DNA of 64,000 nt. Origin: Prostheceraeus crozeri. Lineage: Eukaryota; Platyhelminthes; Polycladida; Euryleptidae. A program made the translations under genes and the position numbers. The DNA lies in NCBI GenBank assembly GCA_907163375.1, contig CAJQUW010009202.1:62002-126001 (forward strand), written 5' to 3'. This document shows positions 16,465-32,802 of this stretch, one piece after another (position 1 is the stretch's first letter; each line of letters begins with the position of its first letter). The notes beneath the pieces were generated by a model. The model was not told the DNA's origin, searched no databases, and worked only from the letters and a program-made list of their open reading frames with translations.

Positions 16465-16577
16465 GTTGTCTTTGAAATGCTGACTTTGAATAATGATAAC
16501 TTTAACATTTTTCTAATTCTTAAGTATACACAAGCAGCCAATCAGAATGAACATCCAATGAATGAAGAGAATGAAAG

Positions 16578-16584: not shown

Positions 16585-16942
16585 GCAAAGTGACATTCGT
16601 GTCATTTCACTCTGTCTTTGAGACGTATAAGTGAAGTGTTCTCTAGCAAATTCTATATTTGAGGCGTACAAGTGAACTGCTCTCTCGTGAATTCCAAATT
16701 TGAGACGTATTATTTGAGTGAAGTCTCTATCTTGTTGAAGTATCAACCTTAAACCTGATTTCGTTGAAATAGTAAGTTGAAAATTTCTTCACTCATCTCC
16801 GTCAAACGTGTGGTTAATAGCATCTTCCTCAATTTCAGCCATCAACTTCATCACCAACGCCCTCCCTTCTCGAGGAAAGTTTAGAGTCGTTGAGTCAAAG
16901 TAGGTTGTAACAATACACTGAGACTTGAACAGAGATGATAGA

Positions 16943-19900
16943 ATGATTTCTCTTTCAGGTGATGTGAGTTCCAGCTCAGGACTCTCGCGACAAGGCAACG
17001 AGTGGGAATGTGCCGACTGCGGACATATGTTTACAAGGAAGCACAGTCTCCTTCGACACATCAAACAACGTGTGTGTCAACGCAAAGCGGCGTCAATCTC
17101 CGGAGGTGAAGTTGATTCTGACGATGACATCTCCTTTCCTTGCGATTTGTGCCCTCTTTCTTTTGATAGTCACTTTCAGCGATCTTCGCACAGACTTCAA
17201 CACACGCATGCAAATGATCACTACACCAACGGTACCTCTACCATCTCCCTCATTAATGTTTCACATAATAATTTAGTACGCGACTACTGCATGGAGCCCA
17301 ATACTCAAATAGTAGATTTTCCTGAGTGGCTCCTTCAAAATTCAAACATTATCGAAGCGCTCTTCAACAATTTAGACAATTTTAGAATGAAGGCGCTCAT
17401 CTACCTTAAACTAAAATATATTAAGATAGATTTTCAAACGGGTCAAGTGACGGAGAGAATACAGTTTCATGTTCCTTCCTCTTCCGCAACCGAAGTTGTA
17501 GACTGCGAGTCTTGGCTAAATTTTCACATTCAATGTTTAAAATCAAATGTAGATAAATTCAATCAACGCGACAGCGCTCTCATTTTTGATGGTGTGGACT
17601 CAGCCATATTCAAAATTTCCCTATTAGAAAGTCATGCAGCTCGAGGCACATTTAAACTACCAAAAACGTTGTATAATAAGAAAGCTGTCATCAATGTCGA
17701 TTGTAAATCACAGTGTTTCAAATATGCAGTCCTATCCATCCTTCACTATAATGATATCAACGCGAATCGAAATCATACCTATAGCTATAGACAGTGGGAG
17801 GATGAACTAGACTTTGAAGGTTGTGATAGTAACAACATGAAAATCAAAGATGTAGAAACGTTCGAAAAACATAATAAGATTAAAATTGTCGTTCACGTGT
17901 GGGAGAAGGGGTTGAAGGGTGCCCGCTATAATTCACGTTCAACTTGTTATGAACGTGTAGTCAACCTCTTATTAGTAAAACAAGATGATAGCGAGGAATG
18001 GCACTACTGTGGTATTCCCAAAATCTCTCGCTTGTACACTCACTTGGGGCACTCTAAAAGAGGTGAACATTTTGTATGCGACCGCTGCATCCGCTCCTTT
18101 TGGAGTAAAGATAAATTTGAAACTCACTATGAATGGTGCAAGCGAGGTAAATTACAAATGGAACGCATGCCCAAAGATAAAATATTTTCACATAGGGATA
18201 ATGGTGACGAATTAAGTCCCCTGCGTGTCATTTACGCAGACATAGAATGCTACATTGATGATATCATCCACAAGCCAGCAGCCATATCCTGCTATGAAGT
18301 ATGGCATGACCACTTTAGGAATAGACAAAACAAAATGCATACTTGGCAAGGTGAAGATTGCATTTCAAAATTTCTAGAATTTCTCGATAAAGCTGCTAAA
18401 TTTCAACAATCATATGATTCCCAATTGCAGCGTAAGTCACTACATATGTCAGATGAAGACAAACAAAAATTTGAAAGTTGCACATCCTGTCCTAAATGTC
18501 ATAAAACGTTTGATGACGATAAAATTAAGAAAGTGCGTGATCATGATCACATCACTGGTAAATTTAGAAACGCACTCTGCTCCAAATGTAACTTTTCACT
18601 TAGGTTGAGACGTCGTGTACTACCCGTCATTTTTCATAACTTTAAGGGCTATGACAGTCATATGCTCATAAAAGGAGGGTTGAGCCAGATGAAATTGTGG
18701 CAGTTTAATGTAATAGCACAAACGAGAGAAAAATTCATGGCAATGACAGCAAAAGTACCAGTAGATAAAACTAAAGAAAATAAGACAGTCTTCTTCGAAA
18801 TAAAATTTTTAGATTCATTTCAATTCATGTCAGCGTCACTAGCTTCTCTCGTTCGTAATCTCAAGTTTCTTCCCCATAGTCAAACTTTGAAGAAACACTA
18901 TCCAAACTTAACGGATGAAATAATCACTCGCAAAGGAGTCTTTCCTTATGCGTATTTTAGCTCAATGTCTAAACTAAATGAAACAACCCTTCCTTCCATT
19001 GACAAATTCAAAAACGATTTGACGGGTGAAGATTGTCCAGTAGAGGACTATGAACATGCTCAAGAGGCATGGTTAAAATTTGATTGTAAAACGTTTGGCG
19101 ATTATATGATCGCTTACTTAGAATTAGATGTCATTTTGCTGGCTGATGTCTTTCAGGAATTTCGACGAGTGGCATTAGAAGAAGACAAATTAGATCCTGT
19201 CCACTTTGTCAGTCTACCAGCCATGTCCTTTAAATCAGCCTTTAAAATGACTGGTGAAACCATTCATCTCTTACAAGACCCGGAGATGTATAATATATTT
19301 GAGCGCGGAATACGCGGTGGTCTCACATTTGTAAATAAACATCATATAAAATCTGAAACAGTAGGTGATGATCATATCCACCTAAAGTACTATGACCAAA
19401 ATAATTTATATGGTAGTTCACTGTCTAAACCACTACCTCATTCCGAGTTTAGTTGGTTAAATCAAGATGAGCTTGAGTATTACTCCAACCCTTCAAACAT
19501 ACTGAAGATTCCAGATGAAGGTGATTGGGGATATTATTTTGAAGTGGATTTGATTTATCCAAATAGCATTAAAAATAAAACTGCTGATTTCCCACTCGCA
19601 CCTGAATCTGGCGAAGTGACTGAAGATATGTTTTCACCATTCATGTCACAATTTCATAATAACTTAACAGAGTGTGGACAGCCAAGGTACAAACCATGCC
19701 GCAAACTTTTACTCACCCAATATGATAAGAAAAATTATCTCGTACACTTCTGCATATTAAAATTCTATTTAGAAATGGGCATGCTTCTAAAGTCAGTTCA
19801 CCGCATTATCAAATTTAGACAGAAAGCCTTCCTCAAACCCTACATAGATAGTAACAGTCAAAAACGTGCACTAGCCCAAAATAATTTTGAAAAGGATTTT

Positions 19901-20743
19901 TATAAATATAAGAATAACAGTCTATTCGGAAAGACCATGGAGGATGTTAGAAAACGCATAAACTACAAACTAGTCACTGATGAACAAAAATATCACAAAT
20001 TGACCTCATCACCTCTTTTCATTGATAGAGACATCATCGATGAGGATCTTGTAGGTGTTAAAATGATTAAATCAGAAGTTGAGTTGTGCAAACCCATCTA
20101 TATTGGGCAAGCCGTTTTAGATTATTCCAAGCTTGAAATGTATCAACTCTTCTACAAAATATTAAAACCATGCCCTCTCGTAAAAGAGGTTCGCTTGCTG
20201 GGTGGTGATACAGATAGTTTCTTTTTAGGAATTACCACTCAAAAAGATTTAAATTTTAATGAAGTAGGCAAGTCATTAGAAAAATATTTCGATACATCTA
20301 ACTACAATCCCACTCATCCACTCTATTCCATACAGAATAAAGCCAAACTTGGTTGTTTTAAGGATGAAACAGCAGGAAAGGAAATAGATGAAATGATTCT
20401 CCTCCGTCCTAAAATGTATTCCATGAAACTAAAAGAATGTGCAGATAGTATTAAGCGTGCTAAAGGTATATCAAAATCCATTGTTCATAAAATGAAACAT
20501 CGGTCCTATAAGAAGGCCTATAAAAATAAAACTATAACGTTTGTCAATATGACAATCTTAAAATCTCAAGTTCATACTGTGAAAACGTACACATTTAAGA
20601 AACGAGCACTTTCAGCATGGGAGGATAAGAGGTGTTGGATAGGACATAACACATCTCTTCCACATGGACATCCTGACACAAACATACCTCCACCCAAAAG
20701 AATAAAACTCACGCTACCACATTCAGGAGATGTATTGACATAA
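16943..20743 (+). CDS. protein-primed family B DNA polymerase (Polinton pPolB)
   Basis: Replicates the element. 1266 residues from ATG 16943 (the frame is open 6 codons further, without ATG). Order: two C2H2 zinc fingers (about residues 25-90), a Polinton-typical NKKAVINVDCKSQCFKYAVL block (~245), a further C2H2-like finger (~380), and proofreading exonuclease motif I YADIECY (~431). An HNH/endonuclease VII-like zinc module with CPKCH, RDHDHITGKFRNALCSKCN follows (515-550). Then exo II NFKGYDSH (~566), exo III YLELDVILLADV (~722), polymerase A YDQNNLYG (~816), B NSLFGKTMED (~992) and C GGDTDSFF (~1087). All catalytic aspartates are present, with no stops or frameshifts. It converges on the 20923 gene with overlapping poly(A) signals. 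A 3'-splice-like TTTCTCTTTCAG occurs at the N-terminus, so the very first residues are less certain. Confidence 0.97.
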   Translation: MISLSGDVSSSSGLSRQGNEWECADCGHMFTRKHSLLRHIKQRVCQRKAASISGGEVDSDDDISFPCDLCPLSFDSHFQRSSHRLQHTHANDHYTNGTSTISLINVSHNNLVRDYCMEPNTQIVDFPEWLLQNSNIIEALFNNLDNFRMKALIYLKLKYIKIDFQTGQVTERIQFHVPSSSATEVVDCESWLNFHIQCLKSNVDKFNQRDSALIFDGVDSAIFKISLLESHAARGTFKLPKTLYNKKAVINVDCKSQCFKYAVLSILHYNDINANRNHTYSYRQWEDELDFEGCDSNNMKIKDVETFEKHNKIKIVVHVWEKGLKGARYNSRSTCYERVVNLLLVKQDDSEEWHYCGIPKISRLYTHLGHSKRGEHFVCDRCIRSFWSKDKFETHYEWCKRGKLQMERMPKDKIFSHRDNGDELSPLRVIYADIECYIDDIIHKPAAISCYEVWHDHFRNRQNKMHTWQGEDCISKFLEFLDKAAKFQQSYDSQLQRKSLHMSDEDKQKFESCTSCPKCHKTFDDDKIKKVRDHDHITGKFRNALCSKCNFSLRLRRRVLPVIFHNFKGYDSHMLIKGGLSQMKLWQFNVIAQTREKFMAMTAKVPVDKTKENKTVFFEIKFLDSFQFMSASLASLVRNLKFLPHSQTLKKHYPNLTDEIITRKGVFPYAYFSSMSKLNETTLPSIDKFKNDLTGEDCPVEDYEHAQEAWLKFDCKTFGDYMIAYLELDVILLADVFQEFRRVALEEDKLDPVHFVSLPAMSFKSAFKMTGETIHLLQDPEMYNIFERGIRGGLTFVNKHHIKSETVGDDHIHLKYYDQNNLYGSSLSKPLPHSEFSWLNQDELEYYSNPSNILKIPDEGDWGYYFEVDLIYPNSIKNKTADFPLAPESGEVTEDMFSPFMSQFHNNLTECGQPRYKPCRKLLLTQYDKKNYLVHFCILKFYLEMGMLLKSVHRIIKFRQKAFLKPYIDSNSQKRALAQNNFEKDFYKYKNNSLFGKTMEDVRKRINYKLVTDEQKYHKLTSSPLFIDRDIIDEDLVGVKMIKSEVELCKPIYIGQAVLDYSKLEMYQLFYKILKPCPLVKEVRLLGGDTDSFFLGITTQKDLNFNEVGKSLEKYFDTSNYNPTHPLYSIQNKAKLGCFKDETAGKEIDEMILLRPKMYSMKLKECADSIKRAKGISKSIVHKMKHRSYKKAYKNKTITFVNMTILKSQVHTVKTYTFKKRALSAWEDKRCWIGHNTSLPHGHPDTNIPPPKRIKLTLPHSGDVLT

Positions 20744-20892
20744 TCAACTTTAACTCAGTATTTTGATGTTGCTTTTTGTAGATATACATGGTTGTTTTAT
20801 GTATCGCATGAGATCGTTTCTTCCTTGTGAATATATGCCTACAGTCAGCCCATTCCCCCTATATCTGTGAAAAGACTTTTTCATATACATAT

Positions 20893-20906
20893 TTTTATTT
20901 CAATAA
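20893..20906. terminator. back-to-back poly(A) signals between convergent genes
   Basis: TTTATT (minus-strand AATAAA) and AATAAA (plus) lie 2 nt apart between the polymerase and the 20923 gene, serving both transcripts. Confidence 0.7.
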
Positions 20907-20922
20907 ACATATCACAATGACT

Positions 20923-22443
20923 TCACTTTGTTTTCCGAAACACTAACGTTATGAGGGATTTAGTATCTTTCACGTGGATGCACTCTTGTAAACCATTGGT
21001 AATTTTGATAGCAATAGAGGGTATAGTTTGTTTGATGACGGGATGATAGAAAATAGATTCAAACATCTTCTCGACTATTCCATATGAAGCGTCTTTATCA
21101 TGAATGAAATCGCGTAAAATGTATTCTTTTTTCTCGCCAACAGAAATAGGTAAAATCAAATCACTTTGAATGTAAAGGTGCTGTTCATGTTTATCAAGTG
21201 TCATTGGTGTTTCTATACCAATCGTATGCGCAGCAGCAAACACTGTTTGTAGCATTGAAAAACCAAAGAGTTTTTTCAAATTTTTACTCAATTGACATTG
21301 AATGTCATCACCCAGTCTCAGAACAACGCGTTGATTTTCAATTGAAAACGAAATGTGGTGTGTCTTTACATCATATTTACTTTTCATCACATGCTTCAAC
21401 TTCTGTTGTATATAAGGATTTACTACATGAATGAAGCTTTCAACTGTATGATATAGACGCGGCATTATATTGATAGCAACTTTAGATTCTTCATAAGACT
21501 GGTAAATTTTCTTGATGCGATCGCCATAGATGTCCACCCACCATTCATCATTAACTGAATCAGCTTTAGTGTGATATTCATGAGAAGCATACACCACACC
21601 GCTTCCAATAATAGGCGTATAATGTCTTACAAAATGACGCAAGGTTGGAGAGAAATAAACTGTAAGTTTGTCATTATATTTCTGAATAACCAACTTATTT
21701 TTGTCCGCCATAATGTTCTCTCCATACTTCTTACCCACAGTCTCATTCCATCGTTTTACTAACTCAATAAGTGATAAAGGTTGAACACCACGCTTTTTCA
21801 AAATGATGCGTTCTTCACATTCTACAACATCTTCATCAAATATTTTAAATCTATAATGAAATTTGTTGATTCGATTTGAATAAACTCTTCTAACATTTGG
21901 AGTAGCAATTGACATTAGATGTAGTCCATGACCAAAACCGAGATGTGGATAGAATTCATTATCCAACCTCAGTGTAAGACCTTTAGTAAAAGAATGAAAG
22001 CGGAGGAACTGTCTCCCACTCCAATGATAGATAGTAAACTCATAAGCTTTCTGATTTTTATTCTTCATGATGGAAGTATTACCACTGTTGAATGCCTTAA
22101 TAATTTTCTCATTCCCAAATGGCTCATAAGAATCTGATTTTATCTGAATCCATTCATAGTTCCACTTTCCATCTGACGTTAAATTGTATGGGAACTGAAA
22201 TGCATTATTCATCGTTATTCCATCATGGGTGCGAGGAGTCAATATCATTTCTTCCAAATCATTCACATTCTGAATATTGCTATCATAGCAAATACTAGAA
22301 ACGCCAACCTCCCATTCACCTTCTAAATGCAGTGGCCGATTTAATTCTACTCGATAGTCTGATGGTTTATTTTTGGGAAATTTATTCATAGAAGCATTAC
22401 TGGGCAAGTAGATTAGAAACGAGTCCTTATTTTCACTTTCCAT
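20923..22443 (-). CDS. Polinton-conserved structural/unknown protein, paralogue A (506 aa)
   Basis: ATG 22443 is chosen because its first residues line up with the paralogue's start. An in-frame ATG at 22473 would add 10 residues. The N-terminus has the pattern I know from Polinton proteins of unknown role: LPSNAS, then a short linker and LEGEWEVGVSSICYDS. The rest is beta-rich with no known catalytic motif, and shares a second segment (NIMPRLYHTVESFIHVVNPYI region) with paralogue B. Position among capsid and maturation genes suggests a virion surface or minor structural part. That role is inferred. ATGCAAAC lies about 35 nt upstream, and the next gene ends 39 nt upstream of this start. Confidence 0.75.
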   Translation of the reverse strand: MESENKDSFLIYLPSNASMNKFPKNKPSDYRVELNRPLHLEGEWEVGVSSICYDSNIQNVNDLEEMILTPRTHDGITMNNAFQFPYNLTSDGKWNYEWIQIKSDSYEPFGNEKIIKAFNSGNTSIMKNKNQKAYEFTIYHWSGRQFLRFHSFTKGLTLRLDNEFYPHLGFGHGLHLMSIATPNVRRVYSNRINKFHYRFKIFDEDVVECEERIILKKRGVQPLSLIELVKRWNETVGKKYGENIMADKNKLVIQKYNDKLTVYFSPTLRHFVRHYTPIIGSGVVYASHEYHTKADSVNDEWWVDIYGDRIKKIYQSYEESKVAINIMPRLYHTVESFIHVVNPYIQQKLKHVMKSKYDVKTHHISFSIENQRVVLRLGDDIQCQLSKNLKKLFGFSMLQTVFAAAHTIGIETPMTLDKHEQHLYIQSDLILPISVGEKKEYILRDFIHDKDASYGIVEKMFESIFYHPVIKQTIPSIAIKITNGLQECIHVKDTKSLITLVFRKTK

Positions 22444-22482
22444 ATTATTCACATTGGAAAAATATATTAGCATACGTTTGCA

Positions 22483-23880
22483 TTAACTCTTCATTCGGAA
22501 ATGGAGTGTGATACTTGTCACAGCATCTTTATGAAAAGGAATCAACGCACCAGCATCGTCATAAATGGCAATATCAATTTGTGGGATGTAGTTTGATTTC
22601 AGCTTTGTATAATGCACTTTCTTGAAAGTATGCTCAGATAAAATACTGCAGCTTTTTGGCTGGTATGGTATCATTGCTAGCAATGGAGCTTCAACATCTC
22701 CCACACGTACATCTTCACCAATATTGGAATATATCTGAAAATAGTTAATACGACGCGATAGCGACATGTCTGCGCTAGCTTTGGTTACAGTACCACTTTT
22801 AAAGATATTTTGATCAAAACCCAAAATGTCCATTAGAGTTTTATCCATAATTAGTTCAATACCTTTTCCACTTATAGTGAGAGACAAAGTACCTTCTTTT
22901 TCAGAAAATGAAATATGTTGCTCATTAATCACTTCATTTAAATAATCTACAACCAATTTAACCGAAGTAATAATGCGAGGCATCAACACTCTTGTTTCAT
23001 GTAAGATACCACCTAAAGGCTCTACACACTTTCTGTATAAAGATACGGTCCATTCTGTATCAAATTGATTTGACCTTTCACATGGTAAATGTTGCATATC
23101 AGATTTTCCATGAACAGCTGCAGAACGATGTCGTAAGAACTGATGAAAATCTTTTGAACAAACTAATACTAGATCATCATCATTTAATTTGCTTATTGCA
23201 ATATGATTAGATGATTTAATATAAGTCAATGTTGCCACTTGTTTGCCATCAACTCGAAGGAGATAATTAAATTTCTTCAATAATGTTTCAGGAGTCATGT
23301 TTGTCTTTCTTGGCTTAATCACAATCTTCTTCACCAACGTCTTCTCATTTCTTGGAATAAGATCTACATAATAAGCTTCCTCTCGATATATTAACTGTTT
23401 ATGACCACTTATGTGGTAATTAACGTTAAAATTATCATAGCTTGTTAAGGCGCTAGCGAGGTAGCCTAAATCATTTCTTAAACTTGGACTTAAACCAACA
23501 ATCCAATCTTTCTCAACTACATGATGTACATAATTATAATCATCATTGTGCGGAGTAAATTGGACAATATGTTTACTCGCTTTATTCAAGAAATCATATA
23601 TAAACTTTTTACATGATAAGAGATCTTTCTTTGGCCACTGTGGAATGTATACTCGGCACCCCTTTTCACATTGATAAGCAGCTGTACGCCTCATATTAAT
23701 AGTCATCACCTCATGATCAAAAGTATAGACACAGTTGCTATAAACAAGTTGAGTGACACCCACTTCCCAATTTCCATTTAGTTATTGTGCATGATCAATG
23801 GGAGTAGAAAAGAGTGCGGCTCGATTACTAGTAAATCTCTTTGTAGCCGCATTGCTAAGCAAAATATGATAAAACGACAT
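22483..23880 (-). pseudogene. Polinton-conserved structural/unknown protein, paralogue B, with an in-frame stop
   Basis: Paralogue of the adjacent gene, same strand and order of motifs (SNAATKRF near the start, then LNGNWEVGV, then LMPRIITSVKLVVDYL). ATG 23880 is the homologous start. The frame is open except for a TAA at 23782-23784, codon 33. No ATG follows soon after it, so this copy makes only a 32-residue peptide unless the stop is read through. The downstream 426 codons are otherwise clean, which points to a recent nonsense change. ATGCAAAG lies about 22 nt before the start. Confidence 0.75.
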
Positions 23881-23894
23881 TTTTATATTGCTGA

Positions 23895-23915
23895 TCTGCA
23901 ACTTTGCATAACATC
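23895..23915. promoter_or_regulatory. divergent promoter with ATGCAAAG motif
   Basis: Only 35 bp separate the ATGs of two divergent genes (23880 minus, 23916 plus). The gap holds CTTTGCAT, the ATGCAAAG motif seen from the minus strand, and GCAATATAAAA on the minus side. Confidence 0.5.
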
Positions 23916-24272
23916 ATGAAGACTTGGATTTTGGACTCTCTACAATATATCAGAGTTGATCGTGATGGAAACGTACATTTCAAAAATTCTCATGGTCATA
24001 CATCAAGAGGAATTACATTAACATGGCGACAATTTGTCAACCTCAATGATATCATGAGGGATTTGGAATATTTTGAAACATTAAGATTCATCTCCTTGGG
24101 TGATCAAGTTTGGCTTCAACATTACAGAAATGAAATTCAAATCTACCATTCTCATTCCGCAAACTGTTTCTCATTTCGCAAATACAATTGGGAGAAGTAT
24201 AGAAGATATATACATCGCTCCATCATGACATTTATTCGTCGTGAGTTCATCGCCCTACTATGCAAATCTTAA
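23916..24272 (+). CDS. PC4-like single-stranded-DNA-binding / transcription coactivator protein, copy 1
   Basis: 118 residues from ATG 23916. The segment LQYIRVDRDGNVHFKNS followed by RGITLTWRQFVNLNDIM has the PC4/Sub1 order: strands with an RV(x)n-GNV pattern, then a G-I-(S/T)-L-x(4)-(Q/W)-x2-L helix. A second half (GDQVWLQHYRNEIQIYHS, then FSFRKYNWEKYRRYI) repeats the same pattern, so the protein may be an internal pseudo-dimer. PC4 binds unwound DNA and supports TBP/TFIIA-dependent transcription. It sits directly upstream of a paralogue and of a TBP homologue on the same strand. The similarity is by eye and moderate. Confidence 0.6.
   Translation: MKTWILDSLQYIRVDRDGNVHFKNSHGHTSRGITLTWRQFVNLNDIMRDLEYFETLRFISLGDQVWLQHYRNEIQIYHSHSANCFSFRKYNWEKYRRYIHRSIMTFIRREFIALLCKS
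24263..24270 (+). promoter_or_regulatory. ATGCAAAT motif before PC4-like copy 2
   Basis: ATGCAAAT at the end of the preceding ORF, 25 nt before ATG 24295. Its position resembles the same motif upstream of five minus-strand genes. Confidence 0.4.
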
Positions 24273-24294
24273 TCAGACATGACTACCACACATC

Positions 24295-24945
24295 ATGAGT
24301 TGGAAATTAGATTCCCTACAACGTATTGAAACGGATCATGATCGAAACGTCTATTTCAAAGATTCAACTGGAAATGTGAGAAGAGAGTTTGCTTTATCTT
24401 ATCGTCATTTTCAATCTCTACATCATATCATGAAGGACTTGAAATACTTCTATATGAAAAGACATTCACGTATTGGAAATCGCATCTGGCTGCGCGTCAA
24501 CAATCGGCGAATTCAACTCTATCATTCCCAACTTCATACTAACTTCACATTTCATCAAGGTAGTTGGGAAAAGTATAAAAGGAAGGTACATCGCTCAATT
24601 TACTCATTCTTTCATCATGAAGCGCCATCGCTACACCATCGTCAACATTCTCCGTCGCTTCAGACTCTACACCAAAATCGATCTCACAACATTACACCAA
24701 CAGCTTCCAAACAGCAAGTATTACCCGGGCCGTCCTCAAATGTTAGTGGTGAAGATGAACAATTCACGGAATCTTCAACTCTTCCCAAATGGGACTGTAC
24801 AGATTCTCGGCGCCCTTTCTCATTCATCGGCGCAGTCAATGCGCTTAGAGCTACAAAGACTACTACGTCGGATATGGAAGAGGGAGAGGTGTGTGATGTC
24901 GAATCTGACTGTGGACAATATGGTGATCTCTACTCAATTGAGTGA
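24295..24945 (+). CDS. PC4-like protein, copy 2, with an acidic tail overlapping the TBP-like gene
   Basis: 216 residues. The first ~110 are clearly paralogous to copy 1: LDSLQRIETDHDRNVYFKDS, RREFALSYRHFQSLHHIMKDL, IGNRIWLRVNNRRIQLYHS and WEKYKRKVHRSI align position by position. The remaining ~105 residues are Ser/Thr/Pro-rich and end acidic (DMEEGEVCDVESD), with no match in copy 1. That tail is read from the same DNA as the first 110 codons of the TBP-like gene, in another frame. It may be a genuine activation-domain-like tail or a fortuitous open frame. Confidence 0.6.
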   Translation: MSWKLDSLQRIETDHDRNVYFKDSTGNVRREFALSYRHFQSLHHIMKDLKYFYMKRHSRIGNRIWLRVNNRRIQLYHSQLHTNFTFHQGSWEKYKRKVHRSIYSFFHHEAPSLHHRQHSPSLQTLHQNRSHNITPTASKQQVLPGPSSNVSGEDEQFTESSTLPKWDCTDSRRPFSFIGAVNALRATKTTTSDMEEGEVCDVESDCGQYGDLYSIE

Positions 24946-25162
24946 CAGTCTATCATTTTTGAAGATTCGTACCAGCAGTTACAATTTGTGTTATGAACCC
25001 GAACTTTTTCCTGCAGCTCTCATTAGTTGTTGGCTACCTGTGCATGTGGCAATCTTTCATAATAGTAAAGTGATCATTACTGGACTAAAATCTCATGTAC
25101 AAGCAAATGTGATCCTAGACTATCTCATTGAGTATGTACGTACCCAGCGGATTGTAAAATAA
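24617..25162 (+). CDS. TATA-binding-protein-like transcription factor
   Basis: 181 residues from ATG 24617, almost exactly the TBP core. Two direct repeats: residues 7-90 (TKIDLTTL, NSKYYPGRPQMLVVKM, LQLFPNGTVQILGA) and 98-175 (VDNMVISTQLSD, CYEPELFPAAL, VAIFHNSKVIITGLKS). These follow the TBP saddle strand by strand. YEPELFP is the family's most recognisable string. Repeat 2 keeps both DNA-kinking phenylalanines (F131, F147). Repeat 1 keeps one (F56), and the other position appears to be proline 40, so TATA preference may be altered. It has no N-terminal extension. The stop overlaps an AATAAA. It is third in a plus-strand run after two PC4-like genes, which suggests an element-encoded transcription module that recruits host polymerase. 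I know of no TBP described in Polintons. Confidence 0.9.
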   Translation: MKRHRYTIVNILRRFRLYTKIDLTTLHQQLPNSKYYPGRPQMLVVKMNNSRNLQLFPNGTVQILGALSHSSAQSMRLELQRLLRRIWKRERCVMSNLTVDNMVISTQLSDSLSFLKIRTSSYNLCYEPELFPAALISCWLPVHVAIFHNSKVIITGLKSHVQANVILDYLIEYVRTQRIVK

Positions 25163-25188
25163 AAAACAATTTTTCCAACATGATGTTT

Positions 25189-25650
25189 TTATTTCAAATC
25201 ATGATAGAACTTACAAATCATTTTTTCATTAGAGGATGGATTACATGAAAAGTTTTGAATAATAGATGCAAATCGAGATACATGTAAACGTTTTAAGATG
25301 AAGTACAGTACAAAAGCACCACACGTTGATGAAAGTGGATGTTGTAGTATGCGTTCATTTCGCTGATATTGACGCGTATGTTTTCTCAACCACTGCTGTG
25401 TTGGTATATTTGGAGGTTGAGCAAGAGAGTCAAATAGTTCACCACGTCGGTCTTCTCCAATAAAGATCGCTTTCCAATGCTCACCGCCTAAATTCTGTGA
25501 ATGAGTGTTTAGCACAATAAAGATGGGATAGTGATTTACTGCAGGTGGTAAGGTATCGAGTGAATAGACATTATCGAAAGCTTTCAACGTCGCTTCGTCT
25601 GCATTACGCTGCACTTTAGTCTTAATATCGTCAGCAGTCAACCAACTCAT
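25189..25650 (-). CDS. adenain-like (Ulp1-fold) cysteine protease
   Basis: Maturation protease of the virion, 153 aa. Catalytic set in order: His58 in GGEHWKA, Asp74 in ELFDSLAQPP, Gln103 in LQHPLSSTCG and Cys110 in the same block. Length and spacing fit the short Polinton proteases. The ATG (25650) overlaps the stop of the capsid gene as TAATG. Likely substrates are the neighbouring basic proteins, which carry Gly-Gly sites. A minus-strand AATAAA follows the gene (near 25184). It appears intact. Confidence 0.93.
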   Translation of the reverse strand: MSWLTADDIKTKVQRNADEATLKAFDNVYSLDTLPPAVNHYPIFIVLNTHSQNLGGEHWKAIFIGEDRRGELFDSLAQPPNIPTQQWLRKHTRQYQRNERILQHPLSSTCGAFVLYFILKRLHVSRFASIIQNFSCNPSSNEKMICKFYHDLK

Positions 25651-26927
25651 TAACGATTATACTGAAGAATCACGTCACGATACTTTGTAATTTCAATATT
25701 TGAATCGAAGACTGCATAAATTAATACATTGATCGTCTCAGGTAGTGTTCTTTTGAACGTCAAATCCAAACGAATATTATGAGGCACGTTCGCTTGACGA
25801 TAGGGTGCACTAATATCGCTGTCAGCAGTCAAATCAAATGCATAAATAGTATATCCACTCTTAAACTCTTTCATAGTCAGTCCGTTGGTGTCATCCGTAT
25901 TGTAAAAGCCAAAGACAGCCATAAAATCAACATAACTGCGCATAAATTGATCCGAAGCAAAATCTGGTTTGTAGGGTGGACCAGGATGACTCACACCAAT
26001 TACACGTAAAGCAATTTCACTTAACTGATTGTGTTTAAAATTGAAAGGATTCTTCTTTATATTACCATTAAATGCATCATTTTCAACCATTGCCACCATG
26101 AGGAGCTTCGGTGCTTCCGATGGAAAGAGGCCATCTTTCATGAAACTCTTTTGATCTTTCGGAATTGTAAAGGTGAGAAGCTTTGTATGCTGAACGGGGT
26201 AAATGGCATTTTGGCGGTTAAGGCCTTCAGCATGCCCTCTAATGACACTTGGATTCGGTACTACTCGACGAATGTAAAGTGCAATATCTTCCACATGAAT
26301 TCTAAAATTGTCAACTTTAGCAAATGCATTCAGCGCAAATTCAGGCTTATTCAATGTCAGCTTGAGTCGCATGCTGGTATTACAGAGTAAAAACTTTGAC
26401 TGTCTAAAGAAGTCTAAATTCAGCGGACCATATAGCTGACATACTTTACTATCTTTAATCATAGCAGATCGCTTTACAAAGCCACTGTTTGTTTCAACAT
26501 CAAATTTTCCTGCTTCATCTCTATACCATCCCATGGCTTCCATATGACTTTTTTGTGCTGCTGGATGAAACTGTGATACATGATTGAAATATGATTTATA
26601 GGGATAATCGCTTTGACCACCTTCCACCTGCTGCTCTCCAATCGTTAGAGAAACATCGCGAAGTAATGTAGTCAATGGTAAATTGTTCAGCCCAACTTTA
26701 TGTGTATCGTCAATAGCAGTTCCATCTGCTTGCTGAATTCTAAACCTCAAATCAAGCATCGCATAACTCAAATCTATGTAGTCATCACTACCACCAGGAA
26801 TAACAAATTCAATGGGGCCAGCATTCTCAGCTGTTCGAGGATGATAATCTACAATACTTGAACTAAGAATATCTGTCTGTATGGCTTGTTGATCGAACAA
26901 ACAAAAACCGGAAGTTTTACACTCCAT
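25650..26927 (-). CDS. candidate major capsid protein (double jelly-roll type)
   Basis: 425 aa from ATG 26927. The N-terminal half has the run found in Polinton capsid-type proteins (the F54H12.2-like group): GPIEFVIPGGSDDYIDLS, then a DLRFRI strand, LTTLLRDVSLTIGEQQVEGG, YPYKSYFNHVSQF and a long beta-rich remainder. It lies between the protease and a small basic protein, the usual structural cluster. Assignment to the double-jelly-roll fold rests on family knowledge. The alternative is a minor capsid protein. The ORF is intact. Confidence 0.75.
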   Translation of the reverse strand: MECKTSGFCLFDQQAIQTDILSSSIVDYHPRTAENAGPIEFVIPGGSDDYIDLSYAMLDLRFRIQQADGTAIDDTHKVGLNNLPLTTLLRDVSLTIGEQQVEGGQSDYPYKSYFNHVSQFHPAAQKSHMEAMGWYRDEAGKFDVETNSGFVKRSAMIKDSKVCQLYGPLNLDFFRQSKFLLCNTSMRLKLTLNKPEFALNAFAKVDNFRIHVEDIALYIRRVVPNPSVIRGHAEGLNRQNAIYPVQHTKLLTFTIPKDQKSFMKDGLFPSEAPKLLMVAMVENDAFNGNIKKNPFNFKHNQLSEIALRVIGVSHPGPPYKPDFASDQFMRSYVDFMAVFGFYNTDDTNGLTMKEFKSGYTIYAFDLTADSDISAPYRQANVPHNIRLDLTFKRTLPETINVLIYAVFDSNIEITKYRDVILQYNR

Positions 26928-26929
26928 GA

Positions 26930-27385
26930 TTAGAAGTTATAGCAGCGTCGTCGTTTAGCGCCTGATGAATGATTAGAGCCTCTGCGACGTTTGCGTGAAT
27001 GCCTTTTGACTGAAGATCGCACCTTACCAGCTCCGCGATGTTTCCTCCTTCCTTTTTTCATTCGTTTAGGTGATTTCTTTCCTTGAGTAACACCAGCAAT
27101 GGTCTGCTTCAATGTTTTTAAACCGCGTTCCTTCCCACGATTCAACAAACTGCTCTTAAAACTTCTACCTCTGGAAAGATCACTAGCAACATCACCAGCA
27201 AAGCCAACGGCATTACTTAAAACATTTCGTTTTAAAGATCTACCGACATTGGATATGAGAGGTGCTACAACAGATTTCAGTGCACCAAGTATGCTACCTC
27301 CACGTTGGCGGCGAGCACCGATGTAAATTTGTCCTCCGCCACTTACATAGGAGGGTCGTGAATAAAATGAGGCAGTTGGATTCAT
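26930..27385 (-). CDS. small basic virion protein (core/pX- or pVI-like), unknown
   Basis: 151 aa from ATG 27385. The N-terminus has a glycine-rich segment with RQRGGS (a plausible adenain-type site) followed by the amphipathic stretch ILGALKSVVAPLISNVGRSL. The C-terminal 50 residues are almost all K/R/H/S/G, suited to DNA condensation. This arrangement is common in Polinton structural clusters. ATGCAAAG lies about 30 nt upstream. It ends 3 nt before the capsid gene starts. Confidence 0.7.
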   Translation of the reverse strand: MNPTASFYSRPSYVSGGGQIYIGARRQRGGSILGALKSVVAPLISNVGRSLKRNVLSNAVGFAGDVASDLSRGRSFKSSLLNRGKERGLKTLKQTIAGVTQGKKSPKRMKKGRRKHRGAGKVRSSVKRHSRKRRRGSNHSSGAKRRRCYNF

Positions 27386-27426
27386 AGCTCAAACCCTAAA
27401 CATTGTTAGTTACAACTTTGCATGAA

Positions 27427-28439
27427 TCACTGTCGATCACTTAGATGAAAGATGTCGGCACGACGCATCCAAGAGTTCATACTTGAAGGATAACCAGTCC
27501 ATTTAACAAGACACCATTCTTCACCTTGCCGTTTTTTACATCGAATGATTTTCTCTACCAAATATGTTTCACTTTCAGTGACTACCTCAATCTCATCGCG
27601 GTAAAAGCTACCCTCAATTTCTTCATTATCGTAATCTTTCAACTTGTAGGTGGTCGGAGAGTCTTTTTGATTAATCCTTGATACTGTAAATACCTCCTCT
27701 GTCCAATTCGGGAGGTACCCTTTAGCAAAAACACTTTTCACTTTTGAGATACGAACTTTATCGCCAATTTTCACATCACTTTTCACATGAGTGCGTTTAC
27801 GTTGGAATGATTCGCGCACTTTATCTACATTGTCAGCATTTACATCTACTGGTCTGAGTCCAATAGAACGATGGATAGAGTGATTGTAGGCATGGAGTGT
27901 ATCTTGTAGAACCTTTGTCCAATTTTGTGTCAAGTTGGCAGTAAAATGTCGCCACAAGCGATTTTTTAATGTGCGATTAAAACGTTCAACGAGTGCAGCT
28001 TTATAAGCGCTCTTTACACTAAACAACTCAATGTCATGCCTCTCAAATAATCTTCTCACATGATGATTTTCAAACTCTTTTCCTTGATCACTCTGAATTC
28101 TTTTTGGAATGCGACCTTCTCGAAAAATTGTTTGGAAAGCTTTTGCTACTCCTTTCCCTTCTTTAGTTTTGAAATGGAGGCAACATCACACAAATCTGCT
28201 TGCCACTGTTCATCGATGTCATGAACAATATAATGGCGGGTGCGGTACTTCTTTTTCGCTTGTTTGTGGAGTGTATAGGTAGCCTGACCCTTTAACCATC
28301 GTTTCACTTGTGATTGTGGAAGACCACTCGCTTTTGATAATTTCTTGATAGATGCAAATCCTGCCGGATGTTTTACATCATAATAGATTGACTTCAAACG
28401 TTCAGTCGATGACAGCTGACTCTTTTTCCTCCTTCTCAT
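27427..28439 (-). pseudogene. retrovirus-type integrase with chromodomain, disrupted
   Basis: Would insert the element and create the 6-bp duplication. The start is taken at ATG 28439. Order: helix-turn-helix-like N-terminus (SGLPQSQVKRWLKG), first catalytic Asp in WQADLCDV, second in IQSDQGKEFEN, Glu in ALVERFNRTLKNRLW, an SH3-like segment (GDKVRISK, GYLPNWTEEVF), and a C-terminal chromodomain (EWCLVKWTGYPSSMNSW). The reading frame changes near 28175 and only about 36 residues separate the first two catalytic Asp residues instead of the usual ~55-60. A deletion of roughly 70-75 bp plus frameshift has therefore removed part of the core. Frame A stops at 28146. Frame B continues to 27427 without defects. 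Confidence 0.9.
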
Positions 28440-28617
28440 CTTTTTGTTTTCTTGCCTTTCTACATTTACAACAACTGCAGCATTTAGCTTTAGCGGTTTT
28501 GCGATCGTGTTCACATTGCTTAGGGGTTTCATTATGAGGGCTGGCGCAGCAAGTGCAAGTGACAACGACATTCACCTCTGGCGGCTCATTACATGGCAAG
28601 CAACACATCTGCTTCAT
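28402..28617 (-). CDS. small cysteine-rich protein (71 aa), unknown
   Basis: ATG 28617. It has 14 cysteines in pairs (MCCLPC, CTCCAS, KCCSCCKCRK), then a charged tail. It could bind two or more zinc ions or be secreted in disulphide form, but no signal peptide is seen. Its end overlaps the first 38 nt of the integrase gene in another frame, and its start follows the previous gene's stop by one nucleotide (TAATATG). The strongly non-random cysteine pattern argues for a real gene. Confidence 0.55.
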   Translation of the reverse strand: MKQMCCLPCNEPPEVNVVVTCTCCASPHNETPKQCEHDRKTAKAKCCSCCKCRKARKQKDEKEEKESAVID

Positions 28618-28618
28618 A

Positions 28619-29311
28619 TTAATAGTCTGAGAACATGTATTTCCTAGGAGGAGCTGTTTTACGTTTTCCTTTTACCAGTTTTAGTGGCGATGTAGATCTA
28701 CGTCGAGTTCTTCCTCTTGTTTGCTTAGTGAGTGTGGGAGGGGATGTAGCAGGTGACGTCTTAAACCAATTTGTTGGCATTTTCATCGCCTGAGGCATTG
28801 GAGTAGTAGCCACTGTTGAATCAAGTTCTTTCAATGTCTCATTATTTAAAGCAAATTTTGGCACATTATGCTTTTTCAATAGTTTAAGAAAGTATGACCA
28901 ACCAGGTGGAACATAGCCCTGACGGCGCTTTCTACGTGTCGCATACTGAATCAAGTCTTCATAACGTGAAGCATCAATCACTTTATTTTCATCTGTAATG
29001 ATTTCTCCTCTATCATTTACATTGAGATGGGGCTCAATACTGTTGAAAAGAGATATGGCATGTGCGCGAGATGCTAAAGGTGTAGCAGTCGATACAGAGT
29101 CACGCATCTTATTCTTCAAGTTTTTCAATTGCTCAACAGTTTCCGATTGTAATAATACAGCACGATGTGGATCTTTGATGTGAACATTTTGCTGATAATC
29201 TATTTCTTTCCTATACATTTGATTTGCAAGAGGTTGCTTTACTTGCTGCATGGCAGTCAATTGTACATATTCATCCTGAGGAATAACAATCATGCGAGAA
29301 TAAGAACTCAT
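28619..29311 (-). CDS. Polinton-conserved protein of unknown function (230 aa)
   Basis: ATG 29311 overlaps the ATPase stop as ATGA. An N-terminal coiled-coil-like part is followed by a segment of the type ITDENKVIDASRYEDLIQYA, then basic residues and GYVPPGWSYFLKLLKKHNVP. I know this pattern from Polinton proteins between ATPase and integrase, with no assigned function. The C-terminal 70 residues are basic and Ser/Thr/Pro-rich. Location suggests a role in packaging or the virion core. It is intact. Confidence 0.65.
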   Translation of the reverse strand: MSSYSRMIVIPQDEYVQLTAMQQVKQPLANQMYRKEIDYQQNVHIKDPHRAVLLQSETVEQLKNLKNKMRDSVSTATPLASRAHAISLFNSIEPHLNVNDRGEIITDENKVIDASRYEDLIQYATRRKRRQGYVPPGWSYFLKLLKKHNVPKFALNNETLKELDSTVATTPMPQAMKMPTNWFKTSPATSPPTLTKQTRGRTRRRSTSPLKLVKGKRKTAPPRKYMFSDY

Positions 29312-29925
29312 AGTTTGTAGATAATCATGGGAGTTTTCAAAATATCACTTCGAAATCTAAATTCTTCCGGACACTCTTGCGTAAAGTCAATGAATAAGTA
29401 ACCGTATGGTTTTTCAGTAGCTGCTTGAAAAATTTCAATTAAGGCTTTTGATCCTCTGGGTGCAACTTGTCGCGCTAAAATTTCAAATTGACTTTTATCT
29501 CGCGGATTCTTGAAAATAGCATAATAGTGTGTATTCAGGTTTCGTGTACGAGCTTCTTTTCCATCAGGAAACAAATTTTGTGTAATATAGATGATAAAAC
29601 ACCTTTCATGGTGTGCTGCGCGAGTGAACATATCTGTAACATCTTTTGAATTCTTACTTTCTTTTAATAAATCATCCAATACAACAACATCATTAGACTG
29701 AAGTTTATCCACTGGAATAATTCCTTCATGTCGAATAAAGTTGCGACTTTGCAATTCCTGAAACAGCGACGGTTGATAAATACCATAACACCAAATCACT
29801 CGATTGATAGGTTCCTTAAACAACTCCCTTCTTTTATCCAATAAATTCAGCGTGAAAACAGTTTTACCTGCATGAGATGGACCTGATACAGTCAGAACTT
29901 TATCACATTGAAGTCTGAAATCCAT
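29308..29925 (-). CDS. FtsK/HerA (A32-type) genome-packaging ATPase
   Basis: 205 aa from ATG 29925 (an upstream extension of the frame has no ATG). Walker A is GPSHAGKT at residues ~15-22, Walker B is DVVVLDDLL at ~85, and the sensor-like YITQNLFPDG is at ~114. The length is typical for Polintons. It drives DNA translocation into the capsid. ATGCAAAT lies 22-29 nt upstream of the ATG. It precedes the 28619 gene with a 4-nt overlap, consistent with coupled expression. It is intact. Confidence 0.95.
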   Translation of the reverse strand: MDFRLQCDKVLTVSGPSHAGKTVFTLNLLDKRRELFKEPINRVIWCYGIYQPSLFQELQSRNFIRHEGIIPVDKLQSNDVVVLDDLLKESKNSKDVTDMFTRAAHHERCFIIYITQNLFPDGKEARTRNLNTHYYAIFKNPRDKSQFEILARQVAPRGSKALIEIFQAATEKPYGYLFIDFTQECPEEFRFRSDILKTPMIIYKL

Positions 29926-29956
29926 TTTATTACTTTGAGATTCAACATTTGCATAA

Positions 29957-30298
29957 TTAACGCTTAGAGCCAAAGATATTACCCAATAGGTTGCCCACGG
30001 CAGGAGCTATCATTGGAAGTATTGCTGAAAGGAAACCGCCCTTTTGTGTTAGAGTTTTCCTCTTTCTTTGAAGGGTGACTTTAGGATTGGAGATGAAACG
30101 CAATTTCGTAGCATATCGCTTAAGTAACTTTCGTTGTTTTGGCGCTAATTTCTTCGTCCTCAACTTCCTCACATGAGAAATAATTTCACAAATGAATTTA
30201 TCGTTAGCATGTCGTATAGCATTGTATCGCTGATTTGCTTTCATTCGTCGGAGAGCTTGAATGGCTGAAGAAAACTTTTGACTTTTACGTTTCGCCAT
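29957..30298 (-). CDS. small basic protein with hydrophobic C-terminus, virion-like (113 aa)
   Basis: ATG 30298. Two thirds is lysine/arginine-rich. Then comes TQKGGFLSAILPMIAPAVG, a Gly-Gly protease-type site followed by a hydrophobic, possibly membrane-active helix. The design is reminiscent of adenovirus pVI-like peptides and occurs in other Polintons next to the ATPase. Function is inferred only. ATGCAAAT is found about 40 nt upstream. Confidence 0.65.
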   Translation of the reverse strand: MAKRKSQKFSSAIQALRRMKANQRYNAIRHANDKFICEIISHVRKLRTKKLAPKQRKLLKRYATKLRFISNPKVTLQRKRKTLTQKGGFLSAILPMIAPAVGNLLGNIFGSKR

Positions 30299-30349
30299 TT
30301 TCCGTGTTAGTCTTTGCTAAAACCTATCTTTACCACATTTGCATAGGTA

Positions 30350-30673
30350 CTAACTATTGCGACATAAGTGACACTCGAAATGAGCAATATCACAGTGGTT
30401 ACATTGGCAAAGTTGAATGCAATTACGTATGAAACAGCGTTGACAAAAAGCATGCTTACATCTCTTGAAGATGCGCTTTTCATTTCCATCCTTTCGCTTA
30501 CATACATCGCAACACATAGTTTCACCGTTACTGATGTCTATAGCAAGTCTTTTTGAAGATATGAATTTGCTAGCCTTTTCTAAATAATAGACGCATGTAC
30601 AGAAGGAATATACTTCGAGAGTGAGCAGACATAGCTCGAAAACCAGTTGTGCCACAATCAAGTACCACTGCAT
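30350..30673 (-). CDS. membrane RING-finger protein, probable ubiquitin ligase (107 aa)
   Basis: ATG 30673 (a non-ATG extension reaches 30679). The N-terminal ~30 residues are a hydrophobic segment (WYLIVAQLVFELCLLTLEV). After a short linker comes a RING-HC: CDVC, 11 residues, C-K-H-A-F-C-Q-R-C, then CQCNHC and CHLC. RING proteins pass ubiquitin from E2 enzymes to targets. In viruses they often remodel host defence or entry routes. The upstream gene's stop overlaps the region just before the ATG (TGAAAATG). Substrate unknown. Confidence 0.75.
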   Translation of the reverse strand: MQWYLIVAQLVFELCLLTLEVYSFCTCVYYLEKASKFISSKRLAIDISNGETMCCDVCKRKDGNEKRIFKRCKHAFCQRCFIRNCIQLCQCNHCDIAHFECHLCRNS

Positions 30674-30675
30674 TT

Positions 30676-31086
30676 TCAATTTTTCTTTATGGAAAGTTGA
30701 ATGTGAATATCTGAAATCGCTTCAATCACTAGACTGCTACCATGATGGTTAAATGCGTTAAGACGTTCAGCAATTTTTATCATATGTCTTTTAAAAAATT
30801 CTTGGGGGTGATCTACCACTTCCATTGAGTAAGAAGCAAAATGGAAAGAGCGACTTTCCACCTCTTGCTTTCCAAAATGACTAAACTTAATTTTCGCAAC
30901 TAATCGCGCCATGATAATGCTATCAGAGAATGTATTCATTAATTCTAGAAATAGAGTGCTAGCATCATCGACCACTGCTTCGATGTCGGTCTCATCTTTA
31001 TGAAATTTTATCACATAATCTTGAACAGCTCCTTTTAAACTTTGCCTATGAAAACGTAATGTTCCGCAGTCGTTTGAGAAAGACAT
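30676..31086 (-). CDS. Polinton protein resembling a domain linked to pPolB (136 aa)
   Basis: ATG 31086. The C-terminal half (EFFKRHMIKIAERLNAFNHH, then GSSLVIEAISDIHIQL) matches a pattern I associate with the region preceding or within Polinton polymerase ORFs (a long helix, then G-S-x-hydrophobic, then a beta strand). Here it is a separate gene far from the polymerase. No catalytic motif. It could be a polymerase accessory or ssDNA-binding factor. That is inference. Confidence 0.5.
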   Translation of the reverse strand: MSFSNDCGTLRFHRQSLKGAVQDYVIKFHKDETDIEAVVDDASTLFLELMNTFSDSIIMARLVAKIKFSHFGKQEVESRSFHFASYSMEVVDHPQEFFKRHMIKIAERLNAFNHHGSSLVIEAISDIHIQLSIKKN

Positions 31087-31173
31087 GATCGCCCTTTATC
31101 TAACCCATCCATTGCATGAAAACAACAACTCTTCTCATAGTAACATATATTGAATAACGGTAACAAGCATGTA

Positions 31174-31704
31174 TTATAAATCAATGGTTTGAAAGAGATA
31201 AAATAGATACAGCTGATAACTATCATACAGCGAGCAATGATAACCATACAGGACTTTGGCAGTGTTGAGGTAAGGAGGAAAGAAGCATTGGTTATGAACG
31301 TAGCTACTACAACGAACAGACAAAATAGGAACACACAAATCCTTAAAACGTTTCGTGACTTCATGATAATGTTGATTCACTCTACTATCCCAAGGTGGGA
31401 GCAAAATATCATCAATGATTAGATTGGGAAATACTTTCCTCTCCTTACCAGGATTATTACAAAAGATGCGTATAACATTGAAAGCAGCTAACCATCGTTT
31501 AAAGTCAATAAGAAGAGCACTTTCACAAGAAAAGCCATAGTCTTGCAAATATTTCAGATTAAGTCCATGAATGTGTTTTCTCGCCCATTGATCAACATTG
31601 GGATCGCAGTTGGCATGTTGATGATAGACACTAACAATCTGATATGTCCAATTGTTCATAGCAATAGCACTGAGCTCCTGTACAGGTTCACCCTCACAAT
31701 CCAT
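31174..31704 (-). CDS. DEDDh 3'-5' exonuclease-like protein (176 aa)
   Basis: ATG 31704. It begins MDCEGEPVQELSAI, giving the Exo I D-x-E (Asp2, Glu4) followed by strand-like sequence. A middle helix-rich part (HGLNLKYLQDYGF, FKRWLAAF) follows. Near the end is HCSLYDSYQLYLF, the H-x4-D of DEDDh enzymes (His156, Asp161). The middle Asp is less clear, with candidates in NNPGKE or IIDDILLP. It would be a second proofreading or RNA/DNA-trimming nuclease beside the polymerase's own exonuclease domain. Confidence 0.55.
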   Translation of the reverse strand: MDCEGEPVQELSAIAMNNWTYQIVSVYHQHANCDPNVDQWARKHIHGLNLKYLQDYGFSCESALLIDFKRWLAAFNVIRIFCNNPGKERKVFPNLIIDDILLPPWDSRVNQHYHEVTKRFKDLCVPILSVRCSSYVHNQCFFPPYLNTAKVLYGYHCSLYDSYQLYLFYLFQTIDL

Positions 31705-31756
31705 AAAAATGATGATAGAAGCCTAAAACGGAAATTTACACATCTAAGGAAACGTT

Positions 31757-31957
31757 CTACAACATATTACAAAATGAAGAATTACATCGATGCTTTTCAC
31801 GACAAAATACACAAATGATATGATGGCAACGAAGAAGTAAAATGTATCTAATAAGACCACGTCTACGACACTCAAAGCACATAAGCGAATTGTCATAGGG
31901 TAGAGTTAGGAAAGGACTAGCAATTCTCCTTCTTTGATTTGCGTTTTGATGTAGCAT
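31757..31957 (-). CDS. small RING-like zinc protein (66 aa)
   Basis: First ATG at 31957. A basic N-terminus, then CFEC, 13 residues, CHHIICVFC and a further C-x4-C near the end. This fits a minimal RING with C3HC-type spacing and is similar in layout to the 30350 RING gene. It overlaps the end of the 31917 gene by 41 nt in another frame. Its short length and incomplete last zinc pair leave some doubt. Confidence 0.45.
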   Translation of the reverse strand: MLHQNANQRRRIASPFLTLPYDNSLMCFECRRRGLIRYILLLRCHHIICVFCREKHRCNSSFCNML

Positions 31958-32692
31958 TCTTCTCCGACTTGCGCTTCGTACCACTGCTGTTAAGGATTTG
32001 ATCAATTATGTCGTCCACGTTGGGTGGTTTCGGAATATATAGTATGGATTCCATATGCATGGAGAGAGAGGCTATTTTATTATCCTTGTGTCGACCATAA
32101 TATAGCCCATTCACTTTGAAAAGGATATCCCAAGTACCTTCTCCGAGCTCATCACATCTGATGGCTATTGATTGATCTCCCTCCTTCTTATAGTAAGTAC
32201 ACCAATGTGATACCGGTAGGCAAATGTGATTACCATCCCAAATCTTTCTATAGGGAGTATCCTTGTCATCTCTCGCCTTCCACTCTTGAGCAAGAGGAGT
32301 AGGAATGTCCATATTTAATGTCACATACTCCTCAATAATATCAAGTTGGTGGCGAATGTACGGACTCACGGGGATCAGTATGTAGTCCCCATACTGATTG
32401 CGCATTATCTTGACATCCGTGGAAGGGAGCATTCCCGTTTGGAGTACTACGCTATGATCGCCATAACGCAAGACTTGTTTAAATTTACGCTGTAGCGGTG
32501 TAGGATTATGTACCTTGGTTGTTTCTTCCACTGGCCTCAGTTGTAGATGATCTGACCGTAGCGAACCTTGTAACGTTTGACCGCCATTTTGTCCTACTAG
32601 TGCAGCAGATGGAGTAGATGCCTGAAAATGAAAAAAGATTGTATTAAGTTTACGTTCAAGGGAGGAGAGGGAGGGAAGTAGCGACTTACCAT
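31917..32692 (-). CDS. Polinton protein of unknown function with a spliced start codon (235 aa)
   Basis: Two exons: 32690-32692, the ATG alone, and 31917-32621. The donor is GTAAGTCG from 32689, the acceptor TTTTCATTTTCAG ends at 32622, and the intron is 68 bp. The frame upstream of 32531 is open but has no ATG until the spliced one, which makes this model convincing. The protein has a short Ser/Gly/Gln N-terminus, a globular middle (YILIPVSPYIRHQLDIIEEY, LPVSHWCTYYKKEGDQ) and a lysine-rich tail like a nuclear-localisation signal. No family recognised. A TATA box lies about 100 nt upstream. Confidence 0.75.
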
Positions 32693-32794
32693 TTTAGTTG
32701 GATAATAGAACAGGGAACTAGAGAGAGAGAGAAAATGCGCGTCCGTCACTCGTGTGATTCAACGATGGAATGATTGTCACTGTGGAAGGCTCGC

Positions 32795-32802
32795 TATTTA
32801 TA
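32795..32802 (-). promoter_or_regulatory. TATA box (TATAAATA) of the spliced 31917-32692 gene
   Basis: Minus-strand TATAAATA, about 103 nt before the ATG. It is the only TATA-type signal in the right half of the element. Confidence 0.6.

Follow-up and report, generated by a model that had tools for sequence, protein, structure and literature searches.

A TATA-binding protein homologue with an altered first repeat, encoded by a Polinton of the flatworm Prostheceraeus crozeri

Virus-encoded TATA-binding proteins (TBPs) are known in large DNA viruses. Giant-virus TBPs include those of CpV-BQ1 (PMC12085832), YSLPV (PMC4602308) and a megavirus (PMC11464507). For CpV-BQ1, a giant algal virus with both a TBP and TFIIB, the authors propose that these two proteins redirect host RNA polymerase II (Pol II) (PMC12085832). 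The Polinton protein described below resembles the giant-virus TBPs in being virus-encoded and, for CpV-BQ1, in the role proposed for it; compared by description, these viruses differ in having large genomes that also encode TFIIB (PMC12085832, PMC4602308, PMC11464507). Mirusviruses are likewise DNA viruses that encode a TBP, in 59% of cases, and differ in being large viruses (PMC10132985). Putative mirusvirus elements of an alga carry sporadic TBPs (PMC10675990).

The nearest functional model with a studied mechanism is KSHV ORF24, the TBP mimic of beta- and gammaherpesviruses, which is alike in being a viral TBP-like factor and directs host Pol II to viral late promoters (PMC12529657). The excerpts of that paper describe the four intercalating phenylalanines of TBP and the role of E188 in TFIIB binding; the second TFIIB residue is printed there as E184, and the mapping used here gives E186. 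ORF24 needs all four phenylalanines, its N-terminal lobe is the better conserved one, the acidic residues for TFIIB contact are missing from it, and it carries an additional DNA-binding domain (PMC12529657). The Polinton family is the reverse of ORF24, in that its C-terminal repeat is better kept, its TFIIB residues are retained and one phenylalanine of its N-terminal repeat is lost.

Adintoviruses and animal Polintons have a type B polymerase, an rve integrase with a chromodomain, a virion-maturation protease, an FtsK-type ATPase and capsid genes (PMC11071296, PMC8363768). They share the first two with the element studied here, in which the other three have weakly matching or candidate counterparts. 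They differ, compared by description, in that TATA and TBP are absent as terms from the main texts of these two papers. A look-up of terms in the main texts of PMC11071308, PMC10120064, PMC12220804 and PMC7805220 gave no Polinton TBP, and the excerpts of PMC7786948 name host TBP only. The first-pass annotation of this locus was aware of no description of a Polinton TBP, and the literature searched contained none among the matches listed.

The window analyzed is the whole stretch of 64,000 nucleotides from the forward strand of the P. crozeri assembly GCA_907163375.1 (contig CAJQUW010009202.1, positions 62,002 to 126,001), and all coordinates refer to it (Table 1). The element has the terminal inverted repeats and the 6-bp target duplication expected of a Polinton/Maverick. 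Each block of the left repeat pairs with the right end at 100% complementarity, and the register shifts between the two blocks. When the host flanks were joined without the element, a single open transposase frame was obtained (DDE_1, 2.4e-21, in the left part), so the insertion looks recent. This pogo-like transposase ORF, which occupies positions 10061-10512 and 34234 onward, has a cysteine-rich end that appears PHD-like by eye. Host-side retroelements were also observed: an ORF with endonuclease and reverse transcriptase at 46553-48628 (+), which is LINE-like, and a GIY-YIG ORF at 44245-44790 (+), which may be Penelope-like. Scanning the window for Rfam families and tRNAs gave no hits.

Table 1. 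Coordinates of the Polinton, its ends and its candidate genes in the window
Feature	Position	Strand	Basis or remark
Whole Polinton, 23,715 bp	10513..34227		Inverted-repeat ends and target-site duplication
Left target-site duplication, TGCGAT	10507..10512		
Right target-site duplication, TGCGAT	34228..34233		
Left terminal inverted repeat	10513..11631	+	Blocks of 125 and 1,002 nt
Right terminal inverted repeat	33110..34227	-	
Protein-primed type B DNA polymerase, assigned by motifs, plus endonuclease VII-like domain	16943..20743	+	D..NLYG, N..FGK, DTDS; Endonuclease_7
516-aa ORF, probable virion protein (inference)	20923..22473	-	No convincing profile match
407-aa ORF, probable virion protein (inference)	22483..23706	-	No convincing profile match
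First tandem partner gene, 118 aa, no recognizable fold	23916..24272	+	5 database proteins
Candidate promoter motif TATGCAAA upstream of partner ORF (tentative)	24259..24266	+	Also at 29948 and 30338 on the - strand
Second partner ORF, 216 aa	24295..24945	+	N-terminal domain related to the 23916 ORF, and overlapping tail
TBP homologue, 181 aa, two TBP repeats	24617..25162	+	Pfam TBP, A1 profile against solved TBPs, residue table
Ulp1/adenovirus-type cysteine protease (weak match)	25189..25650	-	Peptidase_C48 0.0013 and Peptidase_C5 0.044, both below curated cut-off
Probable major capsid protein, 425 aa	25650..26927	-	Size and place only
rve-type integrase with C-terminal chromodomain	27427..28571	-	Chromo at 2.7e-7 exceeds its cut-off; rve_3 at 0.0023 does not
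Packaging-type ATPase (weak match)	29308..29925	-	Pox_A32 0.029 and AAA_14 0.023, below cut-off (ORF from 29973)
Adenovirus protein X (mu)-like core protein (weak match)	29957..30298	-	Adeno_PX 0.0023, below curated cut-off

The polymerase was assigned by three polymerase motif patterns. Its ORF, taken from position 16925, matched Endonuclease_7 in Pfam (8.1e-7), and no PolB profile from Pfam or NCBIfam and no solved structure matched it. The candidate for the double jelly-roll capsid protein of a Polinton gave no match in Pfam, NCBIfam or the PDB and no convincing match in PHROG. For the capsid candidate, the polymerase and the partner gene, no relative was confirmed in viral_contigs. The integrase in this copy is split over two ORFs in different frames, though the element otherwise looks recent. 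Other ORFs include a coiled-coil-like one of 406 aa just inside the left repeat (12763-13983, +), for which no convincing family was found, and two small cysteine-rich ones, at 30350-30673 (-), which fits RING-like spacing, and at 31757-31957 (-), which is RING-like by eye only. The Polinton setting that the first-pass annotation had given to the TBP gene is borne out by the inverted repeats, the TGCGAT duplication, the polymerase motifs and the chromodomain integrase.

The 181-aa ORF lies where a TBP homologue had been proposed, and it is confirmed as a true one by profile comparison. It matched Pfam TBP (PF00352) at an E value of 9.9e-21 and 73.8 bits (curated cut-off, 22.9), in two stretches that correspond to both repeats; an E value of this size rules out chance similarity. 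Ten NCBIfam models for TATA-box-binding proteins also matched (best, 1.2e-18), none of the 10 reaching its curated cut-off. In the PDB, 35 distinct solved sequences were found at E <= 0.001 (best, 4.2e-13), all of them named TBPs or TBP fusions. With the family profile A1, the best match among solved TBPs was an archaeal TBP chain (1e-24), aligned over positions 10-185 in one stretch, and the other solved chains for which alignments were shown matched in two stretches each. The predicted two-lobed saddle fold of the protein rests on these alignments over both repeats.

The intercalating phenylalanines F56, F131 and F147 of the protein correspond to yeast F116, F190 and F207, and the fourth place, at the first intercalating position, is occupied by proline 40. 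Three of the four phenylalanines expected of the TBP family are present, as are both TFIIB-contact glutamates of the second stirrup, E186 and E188. The homology itself is not in doubt; the ORF is not called a canonical TATA-reading TBP because of the proline at the first intercalating position. The first-pass annotation had read the motifs CYEPELFP and IFHNSKVIITG, the three DNA-kinking phenylalanines and proline 40 from the letters, and all of these were found in the product or its alignment. Of the checks that it had named, the Pfam search agreed with its reading. Two points were absent from it, namely, that the change from Phe to Pro is a family trait and that the TBP ORF shares 329 nt with an upstream ORF read in a different frame.

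A search with the single protein yielded 61 relatives. The profile search with the family alignment yielded 1,144 matches at E <= 0.001, of which at least 120 usable ones were listed; among the matches beyond these 120, some may be cellular TBPs. All 62 members of the A1 alignment matched Pfam TBP. Four of the 120 listed relatives carry the name TATA-box-binding protein in their source, indicating that single members of the family have already been annotated automatically. Contigs of at least 10 kb carry 17 of the 138 listed relatives, and no listed relative has a contig of more than 24,690 bases. These sizes fit an element of about 24 kb, without proving a Polinton context. No TBP relative was confirmed in viral_contigs (searched with the single protein and with the A1 alignment), in genome_contigs or in the phage records.

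Residues were tabulated for all 139 family sequences (the 138 listed relatives and the TBP ORF product), with no motif filter; since the relatives were gathered by similarity to this product, distant family members may differ. Positions follow the numbering of yeast TBP. The family is similar to cellular and archaeal TBPs (PF00352) in having two repeats, most of the repeat-2 DNA contacts and the TFIIB-contact residues. In repeat 2, the DNA contacts N159, V161 and F207 were found in all 139 sequences, F190 in 138 and T215 in 137. At the TFIIB-contact positions, E188 was invariant (139/139) and E186 was present in 135 sequences, the other 4 having Asp. There were also departures in repeat 2: every sequence has a gap at position 205, a DNA contact, and is one residue shorter there than cellular TBPs; position 213 was Ile in 117/139; and Pro187 was kept in just 38/139.

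Repeat 1 retained F116 in 139/139 and N69 in 115/139 (with 23 gaps), and its DNA face was otherwise changed from that of cellular and archaeal TBPs. Phe99 was replaced by Pro in 133 of the 139 sequences, position 114 was Gln in 135 (L114Q), Val122 was replaced by Gln in all, and Thr124 was replaced by Leu, Met or Phe, again in all 139. Phe was kept at position 99 by eight of the nine other viral TBPs compared, which came from IMG/VR and had no virus group assigned. An acidic shift was also detected, with Glu in 109 and Asp in 10 of the 139 sequences at position 138 and Glu in 81 at position 133; in yeast TBP, these two positions carry basic residues and are associated with TFIIA and further contacts. 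Judged by the aligned residues, the family has mostly canonical repeat-2 DNA contacts, retained TFIIB residues and a consistently rewritten repeat-1 DNA face. Such uniform conservation indicates a selected function.

In the phylogenetic tree, the 46 sampled family members formed one side of a 100/100 branch, with the 5 cellular and 9 other viral TBPs on the other, and the family has a long branch of its own. The family rows were drawn from the 139 sequences (length of at least 160 and the GRP motif required; P0001-P0004 and 42 others chosen at random). Of the 12 viral rows, 9 were used, two near-copies and one fragment being left out. Membership in the sampled IMG/VR viral TBP clade was excluded by this tree. 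The root was placed at the midpoint for drawing, and a long-branch warning applies, including to L002 relative to the family. Because of the long stem and some long viral branches, the tree does not settle the deep origin of the family, which may be an old lineage of its own.

Upstream of the TBP gene are two tandem genes, the product of the second sharing 44% identity over 112 aa with that of the first, indicating that they are tandem relatives. The five database proteins found for the first are one identical protein (P0140) and four relatives. Neither partner gene had a convincing Pfam or PDB match. A PC4 coactivator fold was considered from likeness by eye; profile searches gave it no support, and it is not claimed.

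The tail of the second partner ORF overlaps TBP codons 1 to 110, and with them repeat 1, in another frame and is Ser/Thr rich, with nine acidic residues and one basic residue among its last 30. The overlapping frame is open for 108 codons. It was stop free in 63 of 50,000 shuffles of the synonymous codons of the TBP region itself, and the observed open length was reached in 3 of 20,000 resamplings from the codon usage of the element. None of 15 other gene-frame combinations used as controls was unusual for its own gene. The third-position GC of the TBP gene was 0.56 inside the overlap versus 0.31 outside. The ORF is probably dual coding with TBP repeat 1. The alternative is that the frame of the tail (24619-24945) is open by chance, with the true end of the partner gene close to the start of TBP. 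It would fit a tail without a known homologue and the long alternative frames that arise by chance elsewhere, such as one spanning 102 codons in the polymerase gene, which is much longer; given the shuffles, the resamplings, the controls and the GC contrast, it is considered unlikely.

The N-terminal extensions of relatives were compared with the partner C terminus in the shifted frame. This analysis covered 131 of the 139 sequences (those with the GRP motif) and included 24 long extensions, of which 3 without the core Met were dropped and 21 counted. A fit was found in 224 of 375 cells, compared with a mean of 85 and a maximum of 116 in 500 shuffles, a contrast that is overstated by the shuffle because the 21 rows are related and the cells are not independent. 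Some extensions fitted poorly, P0049 in only 1 of 18 cells, and several columns fitted in just 4 to 6 of the 21 rows. In addition, the longest contigs of P0141, a relative of the first partner, and P0002, a TBP relative, are both 1,771 bases long and probably one contig. Based on the shifted-frame fit and these contigs of equal size, the order of partner and TBP genes looks conserved among relatives.

Promoter candidates were sought upstream of 20 element ORFs. Among 7-mers, ATGCAAA ranked first within 60 nt upstream and was present for 5 of the 20. Random sets were at least as extreme in 19 of 1,000 cases at 60 nt, 141 of 1,000 at 80 nt and 259 of 1,000 at 100 nt. Of nine shifted controls, one (+150) outscored ATGCAAA with another 7-mer. 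With at most one mismatch, TATGCAAA, a motif picked after looking, occurred upstream of 7/20 ORFs versus 0.83 expected. TATAAAA showed no clear enrichment, with 1 exact occurrence against 0.13 expected and 3 against 3.2 when up to one mismatch was allowed, and TATAAA with at most one mismatch was mildly enriched (13 versus 7.5 expected, 20 ORFs). A common promoter motif of the element ORFs is a suggestive, weakly supported lead.

The retention of the TFIIB-contact residues and of most repeat-2 contacts, together with the changed repeat-1 face, suggests a protein able to dock host TFIIB and Pol II while recognizing an altered site. In the reading that we favor, with a probability of roughly 0.6, the Polinton carries the gene for a viral TBP from an old, separate family, and this TBP acts as a promoter factor recruiting host TFIIB and Pol II. 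The protein would bind element promoters through a modified TATA-like site and bend them by intercalating three phenylalanines where TBP normally uses four. Its repeat-2 stirrup would dock host TFIIB, and host Pol II would be brought in via TFIIB, probably for virion genes. The scanned ORFs of the element showed no TFIIB-like gene, so host TFIIB is assumed as the partner. Both tandem upstream genes are probably coexpressed with TBP and may be cofactors; the second has the acidic tail and shares DNA with repeat 1. From the TFIIB-contact residues and most repeat-2 DNA contacts being kept, we infer that steering of Pol II, as proposed by the first-pass annotation, is the best-supported role. The acidic positions 133 and 138 and the gap at 205 count against it, as they indicate that not all host contacts or repeat-2 contacts are kept, and so does the weakly supported promoter motif.

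The same residues bear on other roles. A protein that ties up host TFIIB or displaces host TBP by competition, lowering host transcription instead of activating element promoters, could also keep its TFIIB-contact residues while much of its repeat-1 DNA face changed, but a pure TFIIB decoy needs neither F116 nor repeat-2 DNA contacts of such uniformity, and this role is regarded as decidedly unlikely. Linear protein-primed elements need end-bound proteins, and with three of the four bending phenylalanines conserved, the TBP homologue might instead bend DNA for replication initiation at the terminal repeats or for packaging, rather than for transcription. There would then be no obvious reason to keep the TFIIB-contact glutamates, which makes an architectural role quite improbable. 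Some transposons carry captured genes, and the TBP gene could be such a passenger, recently taken from the host. Its product is only 21% identical to yeast TBP, nearly all of the 139 family sequences have the same changes, and the tree sets the family apart from the five cellular TBPs by its long 100/100 branch; recent capture is rejected on the tree and is hardly credible.

A broader version of the Pol II-steering reading is tentative and, on balance, doubtful. It holds that Polintons, or a large branch of them, have a half-rewired promoter system, in which the C-terminal half of an ancient viral TBP docks host TFIIB, the altered N-terminal half recognizes a site specific to the virus, perhaps similar to TATGCAAA, and the acidic tail of a partner transcription factor is encoded by the same DNA of the locus.

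If the promoter-factor role is true, an element of about 24 kb would have obtained a promoter-recognition factor through changes in mainly one of the two TBP repeats, with TATA reading and TFIIB docking separated naturally. Such a role would also show how the genes of the element are controlled in the host nucleus and provide a marker for finding more such elements. The long, separate branch of the family bears on the origin of viral TBPs.
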